The translations under genes were made by a program, and so were the position numbers. A stretch of 8,320 nt of DNA from Pseudomonadota bacterium (lineage in GTDB: Bacteria > Pseudomonadota > Alphaproteobacteria > Rhizobiales > Xanthobacteraceae): positions 1-8,320 of the forward strand of contig JAJYAH010000280.1 of the NCBI GenBank assembly GCA_021779635.1, in the 5' to 3' direction. Below are positions 1 through 8,320 of the stretch, in pieces. Each line of letters opens with the position of its first letter. The stretch's first letter is position 1. A model generated the notes under the pieces. It was not told where the DNA came from. It saw only the letters and a list, made by a program, of their open reading frames with translations, and did no database searches.

Positions 1-98
1 CGCGCTTCGCGTTCAGCCCGCAACGCCTCACGTTCGATCAACAGCGCCGCCTGGGCGCTGGCAAGATCCGAAGGAAGATCATCCGGCTTCAAACTCAT
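1..98 (-). CDS. tnpC: IS66-family TnpC transposase, N-terminal fragment (cut by window edge)
   Basis: Only the first 32 codons are present; the gene continues past the left edge. The reading starts at an ATG at 98 and begins MSLKPDDLPSDLASAQAALL, then a charged, Glu/Arg-rich helix. Full-length IS66 TnpC is a DDE transposase of roughly 500 residues whose N-terminus carries a leucine-rich coiled coil, and this fragment fits that segment. It lies 44 bases downstream of tnpB on the same strand, in the standard IS66 order tnpA-tnpB-tnpC. No strong ribosome binding site is visible ahead of the ATG. Whether the catalytic part is intact cannot be seen here. Confidence 0.82.
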   Translation of the reverse strand, partial: MSLKPDDLPSDLASAQAALLIEREALRAEREA

Positions 99-142
99 GA
101 AGCCAGTGAATCAGATTTTCCGGTAGATTCAATTGCAGAATG

Positions 143-490
143 CTATCCAACCCGCGTTGGACGCAAAGTTTCTTGAGGATTTCGCCAGTCGATCCCAGAC
201 AGCAGGTAAGAAAGCTGTGCCGGGGAGATCGTCACTGCTTCACCGGCAGCCGAAGGCCAGATGAATCTTCCTCTTTCGAGTCTTTTTGTAAACAGGCATG
301 CTCCCTGAGAATCGTGCCAAATGACTTTTATCAGATCTGAACGGCGTCCCCTGAAGCAAAACAAATGACCCCCCAGTGGGTCATGCTTCAAGACCTCCTG
401 CACCTGCAAAGCCAAGCTCGGAAAGCCGCGCCGCATATCGGTATGGCCCGTCGCCAGCCATACCCGCACGCCAGAGGGGATCGGAATCAT
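143..490 (-). CDS. tnpB: IS66-family accessory protein TnpB (IS66 Orf2)
   Basis: This 115-residue protein starts MIPIPSGVRVWLATGHTDMR and has the conserved IS66 Orf2 features: the TDMRRGF motif near residues 17-23, the GGHLFCFRGRR segment, the DLIKVIWHD strand and the LFTKRLERGRF segment. Its length is normal for the family. The start at 490 is preferred over an upstream in-frame codon at 541 because family members start at this MIP and because the ATG overlaps the tnpA stop (ATGA at 490-487), which indicates translational coupling. TnpB is required with TnpA and TnpC for transposition of several IS66 elements, but its biochemical role is not well defined. The frame is intact. Confidence 0.94.
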   Translation of the reverse strand: MIPIPSGVRVWLATGHTDMRRGFPSLALQVQEVLKHDPLGGHLFCFRGRRSDLIKVIWHDSQGACLFTKRLERGRFIWPSAAGEAVTISPAQLSYLLSGIDWRNPQETLRPTRVG

Positions 491-831
491 CGCAGCGCCT
501 TCAACACCGCCGACACCAGCAAGGGCGGCGCCGACCCGCAAATCCTGATCCGCCCGCTCCCCGTCAATTCCACCACGATCACTTCACCGGACGGCGCCGC
601 TTCCTTGATCGGCTCCGCTTTCATCGCCGCTTCCACAAAGCCCTGTTCAGCAAGATCCTGGCGAAGCCGGCGACGCCAAGTGTAAATCAGACCCGTCGAA
701 ATATCGTGATCCCGCGCAACCTGCGCCACACACGATCCCGGCGCAAAGGCCTCCGCAACGATCCGGCACCGTTCATCCTCGCTCCAACGCCGCCGGCGTT
801 CCGGCCCCGTAAGCACCGAAATCTGACCCAT
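487..831 (-). CDS. tnpA: IS66-family TnpA (IS66 Orf1, helix-turn-helix protein)
   Basis: This 114-residue protein has an N-terminal helix-turn-helix of the IS3/IS911/IS66 Orf1 type at about residues 13-58: RRRRWSEDERCRIVAEAF, then VAQVARDHDIST and LIYTWRRRLRQ. The C-terminal half (EVIVVELTGSGRIRI...) is a conserved beta-rich segment of IS66 Orf1. The ATG at 831 is chosen; a TTG immediately before it at 834 would add one residue. The stop overlaps the tnpB start by four bases. The protein probably binds element DNA and cooperates with TnpB and TnpC. It appears full length and unbroken, so this end of the element may still be functional. Confidence 0.92.
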   Translation of the reverse strand: MGQISVLTGPERRRRWSEDERCRIVAEAFAPGSCVAQVARDHDISTGLIYTWRRRLRQDLAEQGFVEAAMKAEPIKEAAPSGEVIVVELTGSGRIRICGSAPPLLVSAVLKALR

Positions 832-879
832 CAACCGCTCTTAAGCTCGCTCTTAAACACGTGCTTATGAGTGCTCAAT

Positions 880-900
880 CCGCCTCTCAGAACAAGGCGG
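880..900. repeat. 6-bp inverted repeat beside the IS66 end
   Basis: CCGCCT at 880-885 and AGGCGG at 895-900 form a 6-bp stem with a 9-base loop. It lies in the 232-base gap between the IS66 tnpA start and the antitoxin gene. No T-run follows on either strand, so a terminator role is doubtful. Confidence 0.35.
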
Positions 901-903
901 TCT

Positions 904-942
904 TCATCGTAGGCGTACAATGTTACTCACTGGCACCTCCTT
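904..942 (-). other. Strong ribosome binding site with an 8-codon mini-frame (leader or gene remnant)
   Basis: On the minus strand AAGGAGGTG (942-934) sits five bases from a GTG at 930, giving the frame MSNIVRLR and a TGA at 906-904. A second ATG at 907 overlaps that stop and closes after six codons. The ribosome binding site is one of the best in the window, yet nothing long follows before the IS66 element. It could be a leader peptide or the start of a gene broken by, or next to, the IS66 insertion. Confidence 0.3.
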
Positions 943-1029
943 GATTACCTGCCGATCAACGCGAAACCGCGACTCAGCACCGCAAGAATTACGGCAGCAG
1001 TCGCGCACTCTGTCAACACGTGGCCTTCA

Positions 1030-1057
1030 TTGCGGATTTTCTTCCTTGGCCTATACT
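1030..1057 (+). promoter_or_regulatory. Candidate promoter of the toxin-antitoxin pair (leaderless)
   Basis: TATACT at 1052-1057 matches the -10 consensus at five of six positions; TTGCGG at 1030-1035 is a weak -35 with a 16-bp spacer. The -10 ends only six bases before the antitoxin ATG at 1064, so transcription would start at or next to the start codon. No Shine-Dalgarno sequence precedes that ATG, which agrees with a leaderless message. Confidence 0.45.
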
Positions 1058-1063
1058 TCTCGC

Positions 1064-1291
1064 ATGACCACCGTGAAAGAGTTGTTGGAGCGGATCGACA
1101 GTTGGCCGAAGGACGCGCAGGACGAACTCGCCCGCTCGATGACCGAAATCCAAAGTCGCTACATTAAAGTTTACCGCGTAGATCAGGAAGAGCGCGAGGC
1201 GCTGGCGCGGAGCGCTGACGACGTTCGCAACAATCGGTTCGCATCCGACGCGGATGTCGAGGACACATTCTCTCGATTTCATCGAGCATGA
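1064..1291 (+). CDS. Antitoxin of a RelE/ParE-type toxin-antitoxin pair
   Basis: This 75-residue protein begins MTTVKELLERIDSWPKDAQD and is mostly charged and helical, ending DVEDTFSRFHRA. It has no obvious ribbon-helix-helix motif; it resembles the short helical antitoxin-like proteins often found directly upstream of ParE-type toxins. The call rests mainly on size, charge and context. The stop overlaps the toxin start in an ATGA (1288-1291), the usual antitoxin-first coupled order. An upstream in-frame ATG at 920 is not used here because the segment 920-1063 codes for a low-complexity, unfamily-like peptide. Its job would be to bind and neutralise the toxin and possibly repress the operon. 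Confidence 0.78.
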   Translation: MTTVKELLERIDSWPKDAQDELARSMTEIQSRYIKVYRVDQEEREALARSADDVRNNRFASDADVEDTFSRFHRA

Positions 1292-1575
1292 AGGTTCGAT
1301 ATACCGAAACCGCCCTCTACGAGGTCGAAGAAATCCTGGCCTACATCGCGAAGGAAAATCCCCTTGCTGCCGACGAGGTCGCGGCTGTGATCCGCGCGTC
1401 CATCGATCGACTGGCAAACTTCCCACGCCTTGCCATTGAAACCGATGTGACTGGTGTACGCGTGGCCCCTGTTCTCCCCTATCGGTATCTGGTTTTCTAC
1501 AGTGTCACGGACGGCGCTGTCGTTGTGCGCAACATTCGACATTCGTCTCGCGATCCGCAGGACTTCACCGAGTAG
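1288..1575 (+). CDS. RelE/ParE superfamily toxin
   Basis: This 95-residue protein has the layout of the ParE/RelE plasmid-stabilisation fold. It starts with a beta strand (MKVRYTETALYE), followed by helices holding EEILAYIAKENPLAADEV and IRASIDRLANFPRLA, and then the strand block VRVAPVLPYRYLVFYSVTDG and VVVRNIRHSSRDP. The PYRYLVFY core and the IRHSSRDP ending are characteristic of the family, and the length is typical. ParE members poison DNA gyrase and RelE members cleave mRNA on the ribosome; the sequence looks more ParE-like, but the target cannot be decided from sequence alone. It is translationally coupled to the upstream antitoxin, as expected of a plasmid or island stability module. 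Confidence 0.9.
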   Translation: MKVRYTETALYEVEEILAYIAKENPLAADEVAAVIRASIDRLANFPRLAIETDVTGVRVAPVLPYRYLVFYSVTDGAVVVRNIRHSSRDPQDFTE

Positions 1576-1633
1576 CGATAGGGTCCTGCCAACCTGGGTA
1601 TTCCGGCACTTCTCCATCACCATCTTGGCGGCC

Positions 1634-1713
1634 CCCGGCAGCAGGCCGGGTCACGCTCTATCCCCCGGCATACGCCGGGTGACCGAGCCCCGCGCCCAGA
1701 TCGCGGGTCTCGG
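1634..1713. repeat. Tandem GC-rich hairpins, REP/BIME-like element
   Basis: Three stem-loops follow each other in 80 bases. CCCGGC/GCCGGG pairs at 1634-1639 with 1645-1650, and the same arms recur at 1664-1669 with 1674-1679. A 12-bp stem with one mismatch pairs 1683-1694 with 1702-1713. GGTCAC near 1649-1654 and GTGACC near 1679-1684 are also inverted. Just beyond lies AACGATCGTT (1725-1734), a perfect 10-bp palindrome. The pattern fits repetitive extragenic palindromes seen many times in alphaproteobacterial genomes; it may also stop or stabilise the toxin-antitoxin transcript. Confidence 0.6.
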
Positions 1714-1747
1714 CCCATACGGGTAACGATCGTTGCCGCACGCTCGC

Positions 1748-1792
1748 CCAAACTTCGGTCCAGCAGAGGCAATTCGAACCTCCAAACTTTGG
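1748..1792. repeat. Direct repeat of CCAAACTTYGG (possible operator pair)
   Basis: CCAAACTTCGG at 1748-1758 recurs as CCAAACTTTGG at 1782-1792, with starts 34 bases apart. The second copy is itself a dyad (CCAAA-C-TTTGG). Between them GAGG (1766-1769) and CCTC (1779-1782) face each other. Together they could be regulator sites upstream of the small gene at 1861. Confidence 0.35.
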
Positions 1793-1848
1793 CAACGGCA
1801 CCGTCCACAGTAACGGCCAATCTTCAAGCCAGCCGGCCGACCGTGGGC

Positions 1849-1854
1849 TACAAT
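1849..1854 (+). promoter_or_regulatory. Candidate -10 box directly before a small gene
   Basis: TACAAT at 1849-1854 ends six bases before an ATG at 1861, the same geometry as at the toxin-antitoxin pair. No clear -35 is seen at the right distance (TTCAAG at 1823-1828 is 20 bp away). No Shine-Dalgarno sequence precedes the ATG. Confidence 0.35.
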
Positions 1855-1860
1855 GTTTGC

Positions 1861-1983
1861 ATGTCACTCGATGACGACGATTGTCCGGCAGTCGCCGAGC
1901 ACCAGCCCCGCGAGGCTGAAGATCAGTTCGACGAGGATTTGATGCGCGACTTGGAGCGGCAACAATCCTCGCCATCACGCTAA
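1861..1983 (+). CDS. Possible small acidic protein of unknown function
   Basis: This frame gives a 40-residue, strongly acidic peptide that starts MSLDDDDCPAVAEHQPREAE and ends in a charged helix and a short basic tail. I do not recognise it. In favour of a real gene are the -10-like TACAAT placed for a leaderless transcript and the GC-rich third codon positions typical of this genome. Against it are its small size, the lack of a ribosome binding site, and the lack of a recognised family. An in-frame ATG at 1789 would add 24 residues, but that segment overlaps the repeated sequences upstream and is unconvincing. Confidence 0.35.
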   Translation: MSLDDDDCPAVAEHQPREAEDQFDEDLMRDLERQQSSPSR

Positions 1984-1986
1984 CGA

Positions 1987-2040
1987 CCCCGACATACTCC
2001 CCCACTTGCGGCCCCACATACCGTATGTGGTCCCGACATG
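1987..2040. repeat. Three CCC(G/C)ACAT repeats with a 17-base palindrome
   Basis: CCCCGACATAC (1987-1997), CCCCACATAC (2012-2021) and TCCCGACATG (2031-2040) are related direct repeats with starts roughly 20-25 bases apart. The middle copy lies in a perfect dyad: CCACATAC (2014-2021) with GTATGTGG (2023-2030) around one central base. The spacing and dyad resemble sites for a DNA-binding replication or partition protein, but none of this type is encoded in the window. Confidence 0.4.
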
Positions 2041-2080
2041 TGGTGGCACTCTCCCAATTCCTCAACAATCTCAACAAATT

Positions 2081-2305
2081 CCGCACACACAGCCCGTCAG
2101 CCTTACGGCACGACTCCAATAGGCTTCACTTCGCCTTACGGCTTCGTGCTCCGCCCACTCATTCATGGTTCCCCAAAGTTCGCTCCTCACTGCCTGCTCA
2201 ATAAATGAGACAGGCAGATATCGTCGCTTCATTGGGGATACACATGAACTTGGGGAATCCTATTGGAGTCGTGCCCTTTCGGGCAACGACGGGACTGTGT
2301 GGCGG
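2081..2305. repeat. Long imperfect foldback with branched interior
   Basis: GGCACGACTCCAATAGG at 2107-2123 is matched perfectly in inverted orientation at 2259-2275. The pairing continues outward with small indels: CCCGTC (2093-2098) with GACGGG (2288-2293), and CCGCACACACAG (2081-2092) with CTGTGTGGCGG (2295-2305). Inside, TTCCCCAAAGTTC (2169-2181) faces GAACTTGGGGAA (2246-2257), and a tip hairpin pairs CTGCCTGCTCA with TGAG-A-CAGGCAG (2190-2217). GCCTTACGGC is repeated directly at 2100-2109 and 2133-2142. The result is a branched structure that could act as a structured RNA, a DNA cruciform or a small mobile repeat. Confidence 0.6.
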
Positions 2306-2320
2306 AGCATTCCACAGTGA

Positions 2321-2336
2321 GACAAGTTCACTTGTC
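2321..2336. repeat. 16-base palindrome (7-bp arms)
   Basis: GACAAGT (2321-2327) and ACTTGTC (2330-2336) are perfect inverted arms around a two-base centre. The compact two-fold form is typical of a dimeric repressor site. It sits between the long foldback and the 17-bp hairpin. Confidence 0.4.
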
Positions 2337-2346
2337 ACCATTCACG

Positions 2347-2386
2347 CGAACACAAAAGTTTCGCACCGACGAAACTTTTGTGTTCG
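2347..2386. repeat. Perfect 17-bp inverted repeat, 6-base loop
   Basis: The arm at 2347-2363 (CGAACACAAAAGTTTCG) is fully complementary to 2370-2386, with the loop CACCGA between. The stem is AT-rich and no long T-run follows, so a factor-independent terminator is unlikely. Inverted repeats of this size beside a cleavage site are common in origins of transfer, and the downstream genes fit that setting; a repressor-binding site is the alternative. Confidence 0.55.
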
Positions 2387-2422
2387 ATTTTGCAATTTCC
2401 GACAATCGCGAAATTCTCTTTT

Positions 2423-2455
2423 TTGAGTTTTCAAAACTTTTGCATTGTACAATGC
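2423..2455 (+). promoter_or_regulatory. Candidate operon promoter with operator palindrome
   Basis: TACAAT at 2448-2453 is a good -10 box, with TTGAGT at 2423-2428 as a possible -35 at a long 19-bp spacing. The -10 lies inside the perfect 14-bp palindrome GCATTGTACAATGC (2442-2455), so a dimeric protein bound there would block RNA polymerase. AAACTTTTG occurs at 2434-2442 and 2372-2380, and inverted at 2352-2360. Transcription would begin near 2460, leaving an untranslated leader of about 170 bases before the ATPase gene. Confidence 0.45.
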
Positions 2456-2502
2456 GATGGGGTCGCCAAAAGTGGTGGCCGGGGATGACCCCTGCGAGCG
2501 GG

Positions 2503-2521
2503 CGCCGGCCACAAGCCGGCG
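2503..2521 (+). repeat. GC-rich leader hairpin
   Basis: CGCCGGC (2503-2509) pairs with GCCGGCG (2515-2521) around CACAA. It lies in the presumed untranslated leader of the ATPase gene. A little downstream GCGTAGTG is repeated at 2528-2535 and 2544-2551. Confidence 0.4.
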
Positions 2522-2570
2522 TGGCGAGCGTAGTGTTACCGACGCGTAGTGAAGGCGAAAGTGACACACC

Positions 2571-2619
2571 GAGGGTTAAGCCGGCCCAGGGCAACCCTCT
2601 GCCCTGCACGACGCAGGGC
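2571..2619 (+). promoter_or_regulatory. Competing hairpins before the first ATPase gene (attenuator-like)
   Basis: Three stems share bases. GAGGGTT (2571-2577) pairs with AACCCTC (2593-2599). CAGGGC (2587-2592) pairs with GCCCTG (2601-2606). GCCCTGC (2601-2607) pairs with GCAGGGC (2613-2619). The second excludes the third, so the leader could switch between folds. No Shine-Dalgarno sequence lies between 2619 and the ATG at 2632, which leaves room for leader-controlled translation. The switching role is inference. Confidence 0.35.
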
Positions 2620-2631
2620 TCCCCTCTGGCC

Positions 2632-3903
2632 ATGACTTCCGAACATATCACCATCGGTACCGCCACGCGCGGGCTCTCGTCGAACGTTCCGGTCACCATC
2701 GATCCGGCCGCTCGTGCCCGGCATACTTTCATTTCCGGCCAAACCGGCACCGGCAAGTCCGTGTTGCTCCGCAACATTGCCGCGCAGCTCGCCGCCAGCG
2801 GTAGCGGCTTTGCCTTTATTGACCCGCATGGAGAGAACGCCGAAGCCCTCGTCTCTCTGATCCCCTCTTCTCGCGCGGCCGAGCTGGTCTACATCGACCT
2901 TTCCGACACAGCGAACTCTATCGGCCTCAACTTTTTAGCCGACGTGCCCGCGGCGAAGCGAGCGACGGCGGCCGCAAACGTAGTTGCGGCCTTCGTGCAC
3001 ATCTGGGGTAAGGAGGCCGTCGGTGATCGGTCGCAGGAAGTCCTTCGAAACTCTCTAATCGCGTTGATGGAGGCGGGCGAAGCGACCCTGCTTTCCGTTC
3101 TTCGGCTCTTGCGAAGCGATACCTACCGTACGGAAATCATTTCCAAAGTCGAAGACCCGTTGGTCAGAAGTTATTGGGTCGAAGCATTCGGAACGTGGGA
3201 CGACCGCTTCCGCGATCAAGTTACCGCGCCGATCAGCAACAAGCTGGATGCTTGCCTGACCCACCCCGCCATCCGCAACATCGTGAGCCAGCCGAAGAAT
3301 ACCATCGACATTCGCAAGATGATGGACGAACGGCGCATCCTGATTGCAAACTTGAACAAGGGCGGCGTCGGCGAACAGACCTGCCGGTTCTTCGGCGCAT
3401 TGCTGGTTTCGGCGATCTCAAGCGCTGCATTCTCGCGCAGTGATATTCCCGAAGATCAAAGGGTGCCGTTCGATCTGGTCCTGGACGAGTTCAGTTCCGT
3501 CATCACCACCGATATCTCCACCATTCTTTCCGAGGCCCGCAAGTATCGTCTTCAATTGACGCTCGCCACCCAATACCTCGATCAGATACCGCCGGACATC
3601 CTGTCGTCCGTCTTCGGCAACACTGGCACTTACATTTCGCTGCGGCTCGGCGCCGACGACGCCCGCGAGATGGCAAAGCAGTTCGGCGTCGACGGCCGGG
3701 CTTTTCTTGATCTAAAAAACTTCACCGCCAGGGCCCGGCCGCTTATGAACGGCGATCCGGGCACTCCCGAATATGTCGTCCTGCTACCGCCTGCCCTTCC
3801 GCTCCACTCCCGGGCCGGCCAGCTCATTCAAAACTCGACCACGCGGTTTGCTCGCAAGCGCGAAGAGATCGAAGCCCGCATCAAACGACTGTTCGCCGTG
3901 TAG
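2632..3903 (+). CDS. Soluble VirD4/TraG-HerA-like P-loop ATPase (putative DNA-transfer motor)
   Basis: This 423-residue protein is a P-loop ATPase of the FtsK/HerA/VirD4 superfamily. From the ATG at 2632: Walker A GQTGTGKS at residues 36-43; the FIDPHGE motif at about 62-68, typical of conjugation coupling ATPases and HerA; Walker B VLDEFSS at 283-289; and the ARKYRLQLTLATQYLDQI segment at 302-319, like the TraG/VirD4 C-terminal ATPase block. No membrane segment or signal peptide is seen, unlike classical VirD4. The ATG at 2632 is chosen because the protein resembles its family from ITIGTAT onward; an in-frame ATG at 2263 would add 123 residues translated from repeat-rich, non-protein-like DNA. 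There is no clear ribosome binding site. It probably acts as a DNA motor with the second ATPase downstream. Confidence 0.88.
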   Translation: MTSEHITIGTATRGLSSNVPVTIDPAARARHTFISGQTGTGKSVLLRNIAAQLAASGSGFAFIDPHGENAEALVSLIPSSRAAELVYIDLSDTANSIGLNFLADVPAAKRATAAANVVAAFVHIWGKEAVGDRSQEVLRNSLIALMEAGEATLLSVLRLLRSDTYRTEIISKVEDPLVRSYWVEAFGTWDDRFRDQVTAPISNKLDACLTHPAIRNIVSQPKNTIDIRKMMDERRILIANLNKGGVGEQTCRFFGALLVSAISSAAFSRSDIPEDQRVPFDLVLDEFSSVITTDISTILSEARKYRLQLTLATQYLDQIPPDILSSVFGNTGTYISLRLGADDAREMAKQFGVDGRAFLDLKNFTARARPLMNGDPGTPEYVVLLPPALPLHSRAGQLIQNSTTRFARKREEIEARIKRLFAV

Positions 3904-4005
3904 CGGGAGGTCGAGATCAGGCTCAAAAAGTTTCCCCGACAGGCTTGACTCTCACGTATCTTCTGGATCACTCTACTTTTCGTTGCGGCACAGCGGGGGC
4001 TGAAT

Positions 4006-4548
4006 ATGCGCGTGACCATCGAGCATCGCGAGCAGCCGTCGGGCATGCTCGGCAATCACACCGACTGCTACATCGACTGCAATGTTGAGTTTAGTGAGGA
4101 GGAGCGCGCCATCATCAAGGCGCGAGACCTCTACCGCGAAGGCTTCACGATCCGCGCCGCAACGCCGCAAGTGACCAGGGCCGCGTTCTGGGGTTCTGGA
4201 TTGATGCGCATCGCCGGCCGGGTCCTGATCGTCGTGGGCATCTTGCGCGTTCTCTATGAGGGCTTTGGCCATATTCCGACGAACTATGGCGTTCCGCTAC
4301 TCGTTCTCGGCATCGCCCTGGAAGTCTGGGGCTTTGTGCGCCAGCGCGGGGCAAACAAGCGCATGGATAATGACGAGCAGGAGATCACCATCAAGCAGTT
4401 GCTATCGAACCCGCGCTTTACCGTGCACACCATTAACGCGGCGGTCTCCAAAGTCATTGAAGACGAAATTCGCGAACACCTCACCGCCTTGAAAAACCTG
4501 ATCCAAAACAGCGCCGAGCTTCGCACGAAGCAGACCTTCGAGCTATGA
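4006..4548 (+). CDS. Two-helix membrane protein of unknown function
   Basis: I do not recognise this 180-residue protein. Its N-terminal 60 residues are soluble and charged, with a CYIDC pair of cysteines at 21-25. Two hydrophobic segments follow, about residues 66-84 (RIAGRVLIVVGILRVLY region) and 94-112 (GVPLLVLGIALEVWGFV region), joined by a short loop. The C-terminal 65 residues are charged and helical, ending in an amphipathic stretch (AAVSKVIEDEIREHLTALKN). The stop overlaps the start of the membrane-anchored ATPase gene in an ATGA at 4545-4548. That coupling suggests a membrane partner or anchor for the ATPase, made in matched amounts. The gap of 102 bases from the first ATPase gene holds no strong promoter that I can identify. 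Confidence 0.8.
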   Translation: MRVTIEHREQPSGMLGNHTDCYIDCNVEFSEEERAIIKARDLYREGFTIRAATPQVTRAAFWGSGLMRIAGRVLIVVGILRVLYEGFGHIPTNYGVPLLVLGIALEVWGFVRQRGANKRMDNDEQEITIKQLLSNPRFTVHTINAAVSKVIEDEIREHLTALKNLIQNSAELRTKQTFEL

Positions 4549-6803
4549 GCGGCAAGGACGACTGGCTGCACGGGCTGACCGGTTCGAACGATCCGATCAT
4601 GAACGCCGCGGTCGCCGTGTTCCTGGCAATAACGGCGATCGTACTCATCGTGGCCGGCGGCCTCTTCCTGTTGCCCGTCGTGATCGTGATCGGAATTGCC
4701 AAGGGCGCGCATTGGTACATGACGCGTCCGACGCCGACTGACCAGCTCTATGCCCAGGCCCAGCAGCGCACCATCGCCGCGAATTTCCCAGAGCCGGAGA
4801 AGTTCAACACGGCTTTCGTCGAGCGTTTTCTCGACGTGCTCGGCGACAGCCTGCCGACGTATCAACTCTTTGCTGGCATCGCACATGTCGTGGACCAGCT
4901 CTACACGGCAGAAAACCTCTCCAATCCCCTCCCCCCGTTAGCGCCCGATAGCCCGATTGAAGAGGGCCGCTACCGCGACGAGCTCATCGCGCATCACCGC
5001 AAGACCGCGGACGCCCCACGTACCCTAGAGATCATCAACGCCACCCTGGGCAAGGCCCTCCTCGGGTTCGCCTCCAACCTGCCGCCGCTTGCCAAAATGA
5101 CGCGAGACGAATTTGCAGACAGCGACGAAGTCGAGGAGTTCGCTAGCTTTCCTCTCATCGATACTCTCCAAGACGTGGACCAAGCCGTTGTGCGTTTAAC
5201 GGTTCCGTTTTTCGCGGAGGAGGTGACGGAGCTCGGCTTGTTTACGACCTTGCGCCGGCAACTAGATCGCAACTACCGCGCTGTCTCCGCCGCGCGCGGC
5301 CGATCGGATCGGCTGGTTACGCCGGATGAGCACAAAGGCACGCCAGAGCAGATCATATTCGACTACCTCGGCAATACCCCGTTTGAATTGCTGTTCGCGG
5401 CGCCGATACCGTTCGCCTTCACCGACGAGCGCCGATTCGAACACATGCACATCGTCGGCGGCTCCGAGCACGGCAAGACGCAGTTGCTGCAACATCTGAT
5501 CTTGCACGATTTGCGCCGGGACGATGCGCCTTCCCTGATCGTGATCGACAGCCAAGGCGAGATGCTGCGCAAGATTCAAGCGCTCGAATTGTTCGCCGAC
5601 CAACCCGACCGCCTGATCGTCATCGACCCCGAGCAATATTCCCCCGCCCTAAACATGTTCGATACCAGCAACGCTCGGGCCGAAGGCTACAACGAGCTGC
5701 ACCGCGAGCAATTGCAGGCCGGCGTCATCGAACTTTACAATTACATCTTTGCCTCGATCGCGGCGGAGATGACGAGCCGCCAGAGCACAGCGTTTGCCTT
5801 CGTCGCCCGGCTGATGCTCTCGATCCCCAACGCGACCATCCACACGTTGCGGGAGCTGATGGAAGACCCCGCCGCGTCCCTCGCCCACAGCCCATTCCGC
5901 GAGTTCATCGAGCGACTGGAGCCGACCGCGCGGTCGTATTTCGAGAATCAGTTCTTCACCAAGCGCTACGGCGACCTCAAGCAACAGATCGCGCGTCGGC
6001 TATACGGCGTGCTCTCGGTGCCCGCGTTCGACCGAATGTTTTCAGCCAAAGAATGCAAACTCGATATGTTCGAGGCGATGCAGACTGGCAAGGTGGTGCT
6101 CGTCAACACCAGCAAGGCGCTTTTGAAATCCGACGCCTCGGCGCTGTTCGGCCGCTACGTCATCGCGCTGGTGATCCGTGCGGTGTTCGAGCGGGTCGCA
6201 AGCCGCGTTCGCCGCCCGACCTTTCTGATCGTCGACGAGGCTTCCGAATATTTCGATGACAATATCCAGATGCTGTTGGAGCAGGCGCGCAAGTTCAATG
6301 TCGGCATCGTACTCGCCCACCAGCACCTTGACCAACTCACCACTGGATTGAAGAGCGCCATCGCCGCCAATACCGCCATCAAATTGGCGGGCGGGGTCAA
6401 CGACCGCGATGCCCGCGCACTCGCCCCCGACATGCGCACCTCCCCGGATTTCATCGCGTCGATGCAGAAGTACCCCAAGTCCACCGAATTTGCCTGCTAT
6501 GTCCGTAACACCACGGCACAGGCGTTGCGACTCACCATCCCGTTCGGGGCGCTGGAAGCCGCACCCACCATGTCATCCAAGGAAGCCGCAAAAGTCGTTA
6601 CGCGGGACCGGGAGCGCTACGCGACATTACCCGACAAGCCGCGACCCGACGCGGCCAACCTCGACAAGCCGCCGCTAGACGCGACATCGCAGCCGACGCC
6701 CACAGTAGGGCCAGAAGACCAGGCGACACAGCCGAAGGCGGAAGGCCCAGAAGCGCCGAAAGAACCGGCGGTCGATCCGAACAAGAAACAATGGCCAATG
6801 TAA
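4545..6803 (+). CDS. Membrane-anchored VirD4/TraG-HerA-like ATPase (second putative DNA-transfer motor)
   Basis: This 752-residue protein has one or two N-terminal transmembrane helices within residues 20-55, a long region to about 290 with no motif I recognise, and then an ATPase core. Walker A is GGSEHGKT at 305-312; VIDSQGE at 333-339 takes the place of the DPHGE motif; Walker B is FLIVDEASEYF at 560-570; and ARKFNVGIVLAHQHLDQL at 581-598 matches the same block in the first ATPase. The shared ARK(Y/F)xxxxxxLAxQxLDQ pattern shows that the two are paralogues. Residues 696-752 are a Pro/Ala/Glu-rich, probably disordered tail. The membrane anchor resembles VirD4 coupling proteins. Translation is coupled to the 180-residue membrane protein. 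It may form a heteromeric or membrane-docked motor with its soluble paralogue. Confidence 0.88.
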   Translation: MSGKDDWLHGLTGSNDPIMNAAVAVFLAITAIVLIVAGGLFLLPVVIVIGIAKGAHWYMTRPTPTDQLYAQAQQRTIAANFPEPEKFNTAFVERFLDVLGDSLPTYQLFAGIAHVVDQLYTAENLSNPLPPLAPDSPIEEGRYRDELIAHHRKTADAPRTLEIINATLGKALLGFASNLPPLAKMTRDEFADSDEVEEFASFPLIDTLQDVDQAVVRLTVPFFAEEVTELGLFTTLRRQLDRNYRAVSAARGRSDRLVTPDEHKGTPEQIIFDYLGNTPFELLFAAPIPFAFTDERRFEHMHIVGGSEHGKTQLLQHLILHDLRRDDAPSLIVIDSQGEMLRKIQALELFADQPDRLIVIDPEQYSPALNMFDTSNARAEGYNELHREQLQAGVIELYNYIFASIAAEMTSRQSTAFAFVARLMLSIPNATIHTLRELMEDPAASLAHSPFREFIERLEPTARSYFENQFFTKRYGDLKQQIARRLYGVLSVPAFDRMFSAKECKLDMFEAMQTGKVVLVNTSKALLKSDASALFGRYVIALVIRAVFERVASRVRRPTFLIVDEASEYFDDNIQMLLEQARKFNVGIVLAHQHLDQLTTGLKSAIAANTAIKLAGGVNDRDARALAPDMRTSPDFIASMQKYPKSTEFACYVRNTTAQALRLTIPFGALEAAPTMSSKEAAKVVTRDRERYATLPDKPRPDAANLDKPPLDATSQPTPTVGPEDQATQPKAEGPEAPKEPAVDPNKKQWPM

Positions 6804-6910
6804 TGTAAAATTAAATGGCATGAACATCGCTCATCAAGGTATCGCGTCGCATTCCGTAGCTTCACTTGCCGAACGTTTTCTCCCCGCCGGGCTTCCGGCA
6901 TATCACCGGT

Positions 6911-7960
6911 ATGGAGCCTCGCACTGAACGACAGCGCCGACCGCGCAATCGAGCACAGAAAACCACCGGCGTGTTGGTCAGAACCGACCACGACGCCCGT
7001 GGCATCGCCGAACCCCTGGAACGTTACGGCGAACTGTTGACCTGCCAGATCGTCGCCCTCTACAACGCGATCCACGGCTTGCCGCCGCGCAGCGCGCACA
7101 CGCTGTCTCGGCTCAAGCAGCTTTTCCACGAATCAGAGGGATTGCCGGCCACCAGCAAAGTGCTGCTGCGGCCCGACTACCAGTGGCGTTACGGCTACAA
7201 CCATCAGACCATCTATCGCCGCGCCGCCGGGACTGGCCGCCTGCTCCACGCCAAGGGGCTGTTCGACCCGATGATGGCGCGCTGGGCCAACACCAGCCGG
7301 ATCGTGCAGCTCTCCGATGATCCCTGGCAGGAGCCTTCAGACCATGACGCGGCGCTCTCGCTCGTGATGTCATCGATCGAGATCGGCATTCGGCGCGATC
7401 CCCATCTGCGGTTCATCACTCATCTCGATATTCTCGGTCATGCATCGAGCGAGGCGCAGAACGCGCAAAGCCCGCTATCTATTCCCCTGCCGAAATTGCA
7501 GCACACCTTCGCCGACGGCAACACCGTCTCGCTTGCCGATGTGCACGTAAAGCCGGACGCCATGTTCGGCGTCGGGTATGAGGACGATCATAAATTCTTC
7601 GCTCTGGAGTACGATCGCAGTACCGAAGATGTCGAACCAACCAAGAATTTGCAGCGCGCCTCCTGGCTTCGGAAGATCCTGTCGTATTCCGCTGTCTCGT
7701 CGAAGCCGAAGCCGGTTTACCGAAGCTATCTGAAAATCCCCAGCCTTCTTGTGCTCTGCGTCTTCTCGGATGCTACCCGCATGGCACACGTCATGCGCCT
7801 CACCAAATCGCACGCGGTCTATCCGACCCAATTTCTCTTCAAGACAATCCCACCGGTCGATCCGCTTTTGAACGCAACCACGCTGCTCCACCTCGCGACC
7901 GAGCCGTGGCAGCGCATCGGCGGCACGTTCAATCTTTTAACAACTGACGAAGGGAGGTGA
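6911..7960 (+). CDS. Replication-relaxation (Replic_Relax-like) family protein
   Basis: From the ATG at 6911 this is a 349-residue protein. Residues 38-115 look like a winged-helix DNA-binding region (ERYGELLTCQIVALYNAI, then the RSAHTLSRLKQLF helix and IYRRAAGTGRLL). The C-terminal half has the pattern VKPDAMFGV (213-221), FFALEYDRSTED (229-240) and SWLRKILSY (251-259), which I associate with Replic_Relax proteins, a family linked to plasmid replication and DNA relaxation. The PD...ExD spacing also recalls PD-(D/E)XK nucleases, though the usual Lys is absent. The start is uncertain: a TTG at 6866 would add 15 residues, and neither start has a good ribosome binding site. It follows the membrane ATPase by 107 bases. 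It probably binds or processes plasmid DNA. Confidence 0.72.
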   Translation: MEPRTERQRRPRNRAQKTTGVLVRTDHDARGIAEPLERYGELLTCQIVALYNAIHGLPPRSAHTLSRLKQLFHESEGLPATSKVLLRPDYQWRYGYNHQTIYRRAAGTGRLLHAKGLFDPMMARWANTSRIVQLSDDPWQEPSDHDAALSLVMSSIEIGIRRDPHLRFITHLDILGHASSEAQNAQSPLSIPLPKLQHTFADGNTVSLADVHVKPDAMFGVGYEDDHKFFALEYDRSTEDVEPTKNLQRASWLRKILSYSAVSSKPKPVYRSYLKIPSLLVLCVFSDATRMAHVMRLTKSHAVYPTQFLFKTIPPVDPLLNATTLLHLATEPWQRIGGTFNLLTTDEGR

Positions 7961-7961
7961 T
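7950..7961 (+). promoter_or_regulatory. Very strong Shine-Dalgarno sequence that fixes a TTG start
   Basis: AAGGGAGGTGAT is an almost complete complement of the 16S rRNA 3' end. It overlaps the stop codon of the upstream gene (TGA at 7958-7960). It stands at the ideal distance, about eight bases after GGAGG, from a TTG at 7966, and too close to a GTG at 7957. It therefore selects the TTG as the start of the zinc-knuckle gene. Confidence 0.8.
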
Positions 7962-7965
7962 TGTT

Positions 7966-8145
7966 TTGGATATCGACAGCCAGATCGCCCGTGTCAAAGA
8001 CCTCATTGCAAAGCGCGAGGAGATAGACACGGAGCTTTCGACAATGTTGGGCGTGACGGCGAAAGCCCGGAAGCCGCAGCGATGCTCGAATTGCAACGAG
8101 GAGGGTCATAGTGCTCGTACCTGTCCACAGTTGCTGGCACAATAA
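7966..8145 (+). CDS. Small CCHC zinc-knuckle protein with helical N-terminus
   Basis: From the TTG at 7966 this is a 59-residue protein. The first 28 residues form a charged heptad-like helix (IARVKDLIAKREEIDTELSTML) suited to a coiled coil. A basic linker (AKARKPQR) follows, then CSNCNEEGHSARTC at about 40-53, which is exactly the CX2CX4HX4C zinc-knuckle pattern of retroviral nucleocapsid and eukaryotic RNA-binding proteins. Such knuckles bind single-stranded nucleic acid and are uncommon in bacteria. A GTG at 7957 in the same frame is rejected because it lies inside the ribosome binding site. The strong ribosome binding site implies high expression from the end of the operon. A role holding single-stranded DNA or RNA for the Replic_Relax protein or the ATPases is inference. 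Confidence 0.8.
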   Translation: MDIDSQIARVKDLIAKREEIDTELSTMLGVTAKARKPQRCSNCNEEGHSARTCPQLLAQ

Positions 8146-8150
8146 AGGTA

Positions 8151-8176
8151 TTGGGCTGGCCTAACGGCCAGCCCAA
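8151..8176. terminator. Perfect 11-bp stem-loop between convergent genes
   Basis: TTGGGCTGGCC (8151-8161) pairs perfectly with GGCCAGCCCAA (8166-8176) around TAAC. It starts six bases after the zinc-knuckle stop and lies 24 bases from the stop of the convergent gene. No good T-run follows on the plus strand; on the minus strand TACCTTTATT follows, which is somewhat T-rich. A two-way terminator is the likely role, and the stem may also protect the operon's mRNA end. A smaller hairpin, CCGCA/TGCGG, lies at 8185-8196. Confidence 0.65.
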
Positions 8177-8199
8177 CTCTTGCACCGCATCTGCGGTTG

Positions 8200-8320
8200 T
8201 TATTCGTCCGCTGGCTCGTCGTCCGGCAGCAGCGGCGGAAGCAAGATCAACGTCCCGTCCCATTGTCCAACCGGCAGCGTGTTGAGCTTCACTGAAAAGC
8301 CCTCCTCGCCGTTCTTCCGT
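8200..8320 (-). CDS. C-terminal end of an unidentified protein (cut by window edge)
   Basis: On the minus strand an open frame enters from the right edge and stops at TAA (8202-8200). The visible 40 codons read through KNGEEGFSVKLNTLPVGQWD and end in a proline- and acid-rich tail (LLPPLLPDDEPADE). The beta-strand-like GFSVKLNTLPV segment resembles the ends of small plasmid-borne proteins of unknown function, but I cannot name a family. It converges with the operon on the other strand, with a stem-loop between. The start and most of the protein are outside the window. Confidence 0.6.
   Translation of the reverse strand, partial: RKNGEEGFSVKLNTLPVGQWDGTLILLPPLLPDDEPADE

Follow-up and report, generated by a model that had tools for sequence, protein, structure and literature searches.

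The window, by which we mean the whole stretch of 8320 nucleotides analysed here (contig JAJYAH010000280.1 of assembly GCA_021779635.1, positions 1–8320 of the forward strand, from a member of the Xanthobacteraceae), contains five consecutive genes, designated ATPase1 (A1), M, ATPase2 (A2), RR and CCHC, and a long non-coding hairpin upstream of them (Table 1). Our open reading frame (ORF) and Pfam results agree with the genes and domain types that an initial annotation had assigned to the span 2632–8145; the structured non-coding element lies outside that span and had gone unnoticed. The ATGA overlap reported between genes is present between M and ATPase2, but that between RR and CCHC is GTGA. 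The ATG of ATPase1 is internal to a longer ORF starting at 2263, and the nearest relative of the window, a Bradyrhizobium chromosomal locus (L005), has the same start codon. Relatives are coded L001–L087 (loci), L088 and upwards (reference plasmids) and G### (isolate genomes). The window and L001–L087 make up a set of 88 sequences, in which L001 and L002 are one plasmid, L060 and L085 look identical by map and L015 and L017 are near-identical. We consider it very probable that the window carries a MOBC-like mobilization module with a likely origin of transfer (oriT) and an unusual second motor, transfer itself being a prediction.

Table 1. Features of the putative mobilization module (window numbering).
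Feature	Positions	Strand	Description
Candidate oriT	2078–2313		Long non-coding hairpin with a basal stem, an inner stem (GAC/GTC invariant) and small side hairpins
ATPase1 (A1)	2632–3903	+	Soluble HerA/VirD4-type P-loop ATPase, 423 aa
M	4006–4548	+	180 aa; beta/alpha core with inserted helical hairpin predicted to be membrane-embedded
ATPase2 (A2)	4545–6803	+	Predicted membrane-anchored type IV coupling protein, 752 aa
RR	6866–7960	+	Putative MOBC-like relaxase, winged helix and PD-(D/E)XK-like domain; TTG start at 6866, ATG possible at 6911
CCHC	7957–8145	+	62-aa zinc-knuckle protein, optional partner

RR matches the Replic_Relax family (PF13814) with an E value of 1.1e-3 and 19.6 bits, under the Pfam cut-off of 25.3, and it is because of this threshold, not of a biological trait, that we call it MOBC-like. 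PF13814 is matched by 39 of 43 RR family members at E ≤ 0.01, the window included, and above the cut-off in 20 of 22 isolate genomes chosen for whole-genome tests among those behind the loci (ATPase2 is present in all 22); G001 and G002, which carry the closest relatives, have no match. The predicted structure of RR (pLDDT 91.8) consists of an N-terminal winged helix and a PD-(D/E)XK-like domain, and its structural matches are restriction enzymes, nickases and winged helices. A catalytic-type motif, PD...E-x-[DE]-R, is common to RR and the seven MOBC-type proteins with which it was compared. His160, Pro230 and Asp231 are invariant and Glu248 and Tyr274 nearly so in alignments of 43 and 41 sequences, and His160 is nearly invariant in a third of 72. 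In the excerpts available to us of the papers cited here by PMC number, PF13814 is classed in the MobC/MOBC relaxase superfamily (PMC5357655), and MOBC is described as a restriction-endonuclease-like family related to PD-(D/E)XK enzymes; pAD1 TraX contains a winged helix, and no covalent DNA intermediate was observed for it (PMC12857230). The earlier statement that no classical relaxase is visible is thus misleading, since the name Replic_Relax stands for the MOBC relaxases.

The MobC protein of a CloDF13-like plasmid, p4_0.3 (L093), served as the CloDF13-type reference; the CloDF13 record itself (L088) has no annotated mobC. This MobC matches PF13814 at 1.2e-21. Its direct sequence comparison with RR was not significant and the RR profile matches the Replic_Relax protein of Bacillus plasmid pBM69 at 1.3e-7, so that the link between RR and CloDF13 MobC runs via PF13814 and via the pBM69 protein. 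The Protein Data Bank (PDB), searched by sequence, gave no meaningful match for RR. On its family, motif and predicted fold, RR is very probably a divergent MOBC-like relaxase and would nick DNA.

ATPase2 matches TrwB_AAD_bind (PF10412) above the cut-off (6.7e-10) and FtsK_SpoIIIE only at 0.16, and by this family assignment it is a TrwB-type coupling protein; a PDB search by sequence returned no match. It has an N-terminal hydrophobic segment (residues 31–49, mean hydropathy 3.06), which the same simple scale detects in 38 of 84 relatives. The M protein, whose gene in relatives usually lies directly upstream of ATPase2, has no Pfam match above the cut-off and a single hydrophobic segment above threshold (residues 65–83). 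Its model (pLDDT 87.8, pTM 0.67) has fold matches only to the helical hairpin, which are uninformative. This hydrophobic hairpin is an insertion, and a segment above threshold is found in only four of 49 relatives detected with the M profile. A separate gene cluster whose products have two or more predicted membrane segments is found close by in 28 loci, as a rule upstream of M; in another cluster (c2; 39 loci), which occupies the M position, 28 of the 39 members have at least one such segment. The CCHC protein matches zf-CCHC above the cut-off (3e-5) and its profile is found in only six of the 88 sequences, the window included.

The 236-bp hairpin folds far better than shuffled sequences (z of −10.2 and −13.3 on the two strands). 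The window and L005 are collinear over 6.9 kb at 72.5% identity; 80-nucleotide bins covering 2080–2319 are 87–98% identical, the flanking bins 79 and 35%, and no other bin exceeds 92%. Among the genes, RR (88%) and ATPase1 (77%) are more conserved than ATPase2 (60%) and M (58%), and the hairpin is also conserved more than the latter two, a pattern that would arise if relaxase and origin were kept as a matched set and other parts were exchanged. The hairpin is single-copy in the L005 genome and was not found in the genomes of five other relatives. One design is common to nine sequences, the window and eight relatives; in two of these (L086 and L087) the hairpin lies upstream of ATPase2–RR genes and no ATPase1 was found there. 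The same design precedes the coupling-protein and mobC genes in four mobC-bearing gammaproteobacterial plasmids, one of them CloDF13-like; the annotation of the Acinetobacter plasmid among them splits the ATPase region into two frames. Sharing architecture and position with the hairpins of these plasmids, the element at 2078–2313 is probably an oriT.

The inner stem was tabulated by a script because an alignment with MAFFT and RNAalifold, which was rejected, had misaligned the stems (15 pairs, covariation term −0.05). The script is anchored on the GAC/GTC pairs of each fold, which favours pairing at the anchor. GAC/GTC occurs in 13 of 13 hairpins, with compensatory changes around it; the 13 include two pairs of close sequences (L015 and L017, the window and L005) and are therefore not independent. 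Two search descriptors, both composed after the hairpins had been seen, were run on the 88 sequences. The first gave 11 matches (the nine accepted, L003, and L017 on the minus strand) versus 1, 3, 3, 1 and 0 in five shuffled sets. The second gave 18 merged matches in 16 sequences, in which the nine accepted hairpins have the lowest basal energies (≤ −34.5, the next being −27.9), and 5, 2, 10 and 11 unmerged matches in four shuffled sets. When 19 loci were scanned for extreme hairpins irrespective of sequence, several divergent ones had them ahead of ATPase1, but they also occurred elsewhere (for example in L004, L007 and L008). Values below −2.5 were found upstream of 16 of 40 ATPase1 genes, near-duplicates among them, versus seven of 250 control genes sampled from 607 and unmatched for intergenic position (p = 1.5e-8); the corresponding proportions were 17% of 72 M-type genes, 3% of 73 RR genes and none of 85 ATPase2 genes. 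Rfam gave no match at E ≤ 1 in the window and L005, blastn of the hairpin against plasmids found none, and a 17-letter hairpin pattern had no match in viral contigs. We take the CloDF13 nic sequence to resemble the inner-stem GGTG–GTC, and a large inverted repeat is present at the pAD1 oriT. Four loci (L039, L052, L061 and L081) have another very stable long hairpin upstream of ATPase1, with an apical stem resembling CGGAAAGG..CCTTTCCG. In the window, a perfect 17-bp inverted repeat with a 6-nucleotide loop (2347–2386) follows directly past the candidate oriT and is absent there in L005. Upstream of the hairpin, an acidic small reading frame at 1861–1983 (about 40 aa from an internal ATG) appears to be conserved in L005.

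The extra motor, ATPase1, matches DUF87 (1.2e-8), AAA_10 (2.7e-8) and TraG-D_C (6.7e-5) in Pfam and TrwB in the PDB sequence search (1.3e-4). Profile comparison of the ATPase1 and ATPase2 families (E = 2.9e-35 over 396 columns) identifies the two as genuine paralogues, one soluble and one anchored as had been proposed. ATPase1 has no hydrophobic segment and so lacks the anchor of a coupling protein; none is predicted in 39 of 41 relatives either, and all 41 relatives of at least 350 aa contain the Walker A pattern. The ATPase1 profile also detects, at about 1e-60 to 5e-60, the one DUF87-type ATPase that each of two Bacillus Replic_Relax plasmids carries, which hints that ATPase1 too may descend from a coupling protein. 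That the genes stay together, which the initial annotation proposed as a check, holds for the two ATPases: ATPase1 is present in 21 of the 22 isolate genomes, in 17 of them on the same contig as ATPase2 and at most 25.5 kb from it. It does not hold for the full five-gene order with CCHC, which occurs in three of the 88 sequences (the window, L005 and L010), the M slot of L010 being filled by a c2 member. Mirror-tree correlations, calculated with no permutation control, are 0.909 for A2–RR, 0.631 for A1–A2 and 0.53 for A1–RR; ATPase1 is therefore a looser partner of the other two than they are of each other. Across the 88 sequences an ORF with ATPase1 as best match is found in 44 (three being short pieces) and RR in 73.

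We tentatively propose, as a rather doubtful extension of the module, that the duplicated coupling-type motors act together in one transfer, with soluble ATPase1 working at the hairpin origin once it is nicked and anchored ATPase2 at the channel. If so, this would be an alphaproteobacterial mobile-element family that uses many helper channels or needs only part of one. ATPase1 is frequently found beside a serine recombinase gene in roseobacter-type loci, so that it may be linked to excision instead of transfer. No second ATPase of the A1/A2 type was found in the stretches of MOBC plasmids that were read, and a Methylomagnum plasmid, read whole, carries ATPase2 only. The genome of L034 (G008) has an ATPase1 copy on each of four contigs and none on its two ATPase2 contigs.

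HerA and nuclease pairs occur in defence systems, and the PADLOC profile mad8 matches both ATPases (8.1e-17 for A1 and 5.9e-18 for A2), as the HerA profile does A1 (8.1e-11). It is nevertheless extremely unlikely that the ATPases are HerA-like defence proteins acting with a nuclease in a defence island: mad8 is a single P-loop profile, M, RR and CCHC had no PADLOC match (the scan covered the proteins of the block), and RR and the hairpin match those of mobC-bearing plasmids.

The recurrence of ATPase2 and RR exceeds what chance would give: besides RR in 73 of the 88 sequences, there are at least 638 ATPase2 homologues (E ≤ 0.001, with the query counted). In genome contigs, 108 relatives were confirmed by scanning, of which the best 80 were retained; 73 of these 80 are alphaproteobacterial by title, and 15 lie on contigs longer than 500 kb and are therefore probably chromosomal. 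Plasmid-borne relatives occur in Sulfitobacter and Methylomagnum, and four loci are on IMG/VR contigs. A single-sequence scan of viral contigs gave one pattern match, none being confirmed, and phages yielded one weak ATPase2 relative; tblastn found no RR in plasmids. Recurring neighbour clusters are AlpA (37 loci), DUF3768 (32), XRE (31), H-NS (10) and CHC2 zinc-finger (9). The 88 sequences include 24 with a member of a serine recombinase cluster and 17 with one of a tyrosine recombinase cluster, the window having neither; att repeats in L060 and a tRNA target in 16 loci were looked for and not found. A conserved 160-aa protein (L051, 6771–7250; cluster of 34 loci) with no Pfam match often lies beside the XRE regulator and looks RuvC/RNase H-like by eye only.

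The name of PF13814, 'replication-relaxation', the primase-like CHC2 cluster and an HTH_36 gene near some copies, and the ParE toxin gene upstream in the window would all suit a replication or maintenance system, in which RR is an initiator, the hairpin an origin or partition site and the ATPases segregate DNA. We regard this as quite unlikely given the probably chromosomal loci, the TrwB-like ATPase2 and the match of the A2–RR pair to the coupling protein and MobC pairs of plasmids that MOB-suite types as MOBC; moreover, two genes annotated for replication initiation are also present on the Methylomagnum plasmid, and a repA/repB pair on the Sulfitobacter plasmid.

DNA transfer, the direction indicated by the initial annotation, is retained here, and the window indeed contains no type IV secretion system (T4SS) gene. 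Across the 22 isolate genomes VirB4 was found in 12, PF03432 relaxases in 15 (14 above the cut-off) and PF03389 relaxases in seven. No contig has any of the three less than 450 kb from ATPase2, in keeping with the earlier view that standard transfer genes are not close by; TrwC/TraI_2-type relaxases and other T4SS genes were outside this search. In two genomes VirB4 or one of these relaxases shares the ATPase2 contig, more than 450 kb away, and the other genomes are limited by contig breaks. The relatives thus show the integrative mobilizable element (IME) trait of a relaxase with no mating-pair genes, as judged by VirB4 alone, and an IME or a mobilizable plasmid of Alphaproteobacteria is the likeliest identity of the full element. 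The two paralogous motors kept together and the ten genomes with no VirB4 might instead suggest helper-independent transfer, in which two motors and a nuclease move DNA with no T4SS involved, a scheme that bears some likeness to FtsK-type transfer in Streptomyces. This appears very unlikely: the relaxase/oriT-like pair implies strand nicking, ATPase2 is of the TrwB and not the FtsK type, helpers may merely be absent from the sequenced strain, and we know of no pore protein belonging to the module.

In the MOBC-like mobilization module favoured here, the winged helix of RR would bind the hairpin origin and its PD-(D/E)XK-like domain would nick it, the probable place being the invariant inner-stem GTC or its close vicinity. 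ATPase2, with its anchor in the inner membrane and together with M, would bring the nicked DNA to the T4SS channel of another element. The ATPase1 gene comes first after the origin, and its product may work in the same transfer step by loading, unwinding or pushing DNA.

The closest known arrangement is the MobB–MobC (MOBC1) system of CloDF13, a mobilizable plasmid with no T4SS of its own in which the coupling-protein gene is directly followed by that of the PF13814 relaxase (PMC7431656). Plasmid p4_0.3 likewise has a long hairpin upstream of the pair, with a GAC/GTC inner stem and a CGTC..GACG basal stem. Unlike the window, these plasmids have one ATPase in the stretch read, with no second soluble ATPase and no M, and their relaxase is distant in sequence from RR; they are plasmid-borne, whereas relatives of the window are often chromosomal. 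The distinct DNA-processing system previously envisaged is therefore not wholly separate: its MOBC-like relaxase and coupling protein have their counterparts in CloDF13, a further, paralogous ATPase being the addition. A coupling protein–mobC pair with the same hairpin about 240–250 bp upstream also occurs in Citrobacter (L095; MOBC and MPF_T) and Klebsiella (L096; MOBF and MPF_F), which differ in being typed conjugative, with one coupling protein in the stretch read. Plasmid pBM69 (L091) and the Bacillus BJ3-2 plasmid (L090) share with the window a pair of DUF87-type ATPase and Replic_Relax genes and a long upstream hairpin; their ATPase is closer to A1 than to A2, the hairpin is of another design and a single such ATPase is present in the stretch read. 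In pBM69, genes for a 'conjugal transfer protein' and a lytic transglycosylase adjoin. Streptococcal IMEs of class 8 are also integrative, with a MobC relaxase, their own VirD4 and a serine integrase, but are from Firmicutes and have one VirD4 and, in the excerpts, no described A1 counterpart (PMC5357655, PMC5704250). The Mesorhizobium IMEs in the excerpts of PMC8627217 are of the MOBF and MOBQ types. In open-licence papers we found no description of an alphaproteobacterial two-ATPase MOBC element. MOB-suite typing in PLSDB lists the Sulfitobacter and Methylomagnum plasmids that carry the module as non-mobilizable, and such elements may therefore be missed.

MOBC belongs to the relaxase families that are less well understood. 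With an origin-like hairpin that can be aligned and covaries, its alphaproteobacterial branch opens the nick site and recognition code to direct testing, and the paired ATPase raises the question of how hitch-hiking elements hand DNA to a borrowed channel.

At the left edge of the window (143–834, minus strand) lies an ORF for IS66 TnpB (PF05717) and one for an HTH_Tnp_1 transposase. The ParE toxin gene (1288–1575) has a small ORF ahead of it (region 1064–1575), and ParE-like genes occur near ATPase1 in L007, L010 and L055. Right behind the CCHC gene, a perfect 11-bp inverted repeat (8151–8176) possibly marks the end of the transcription unit.
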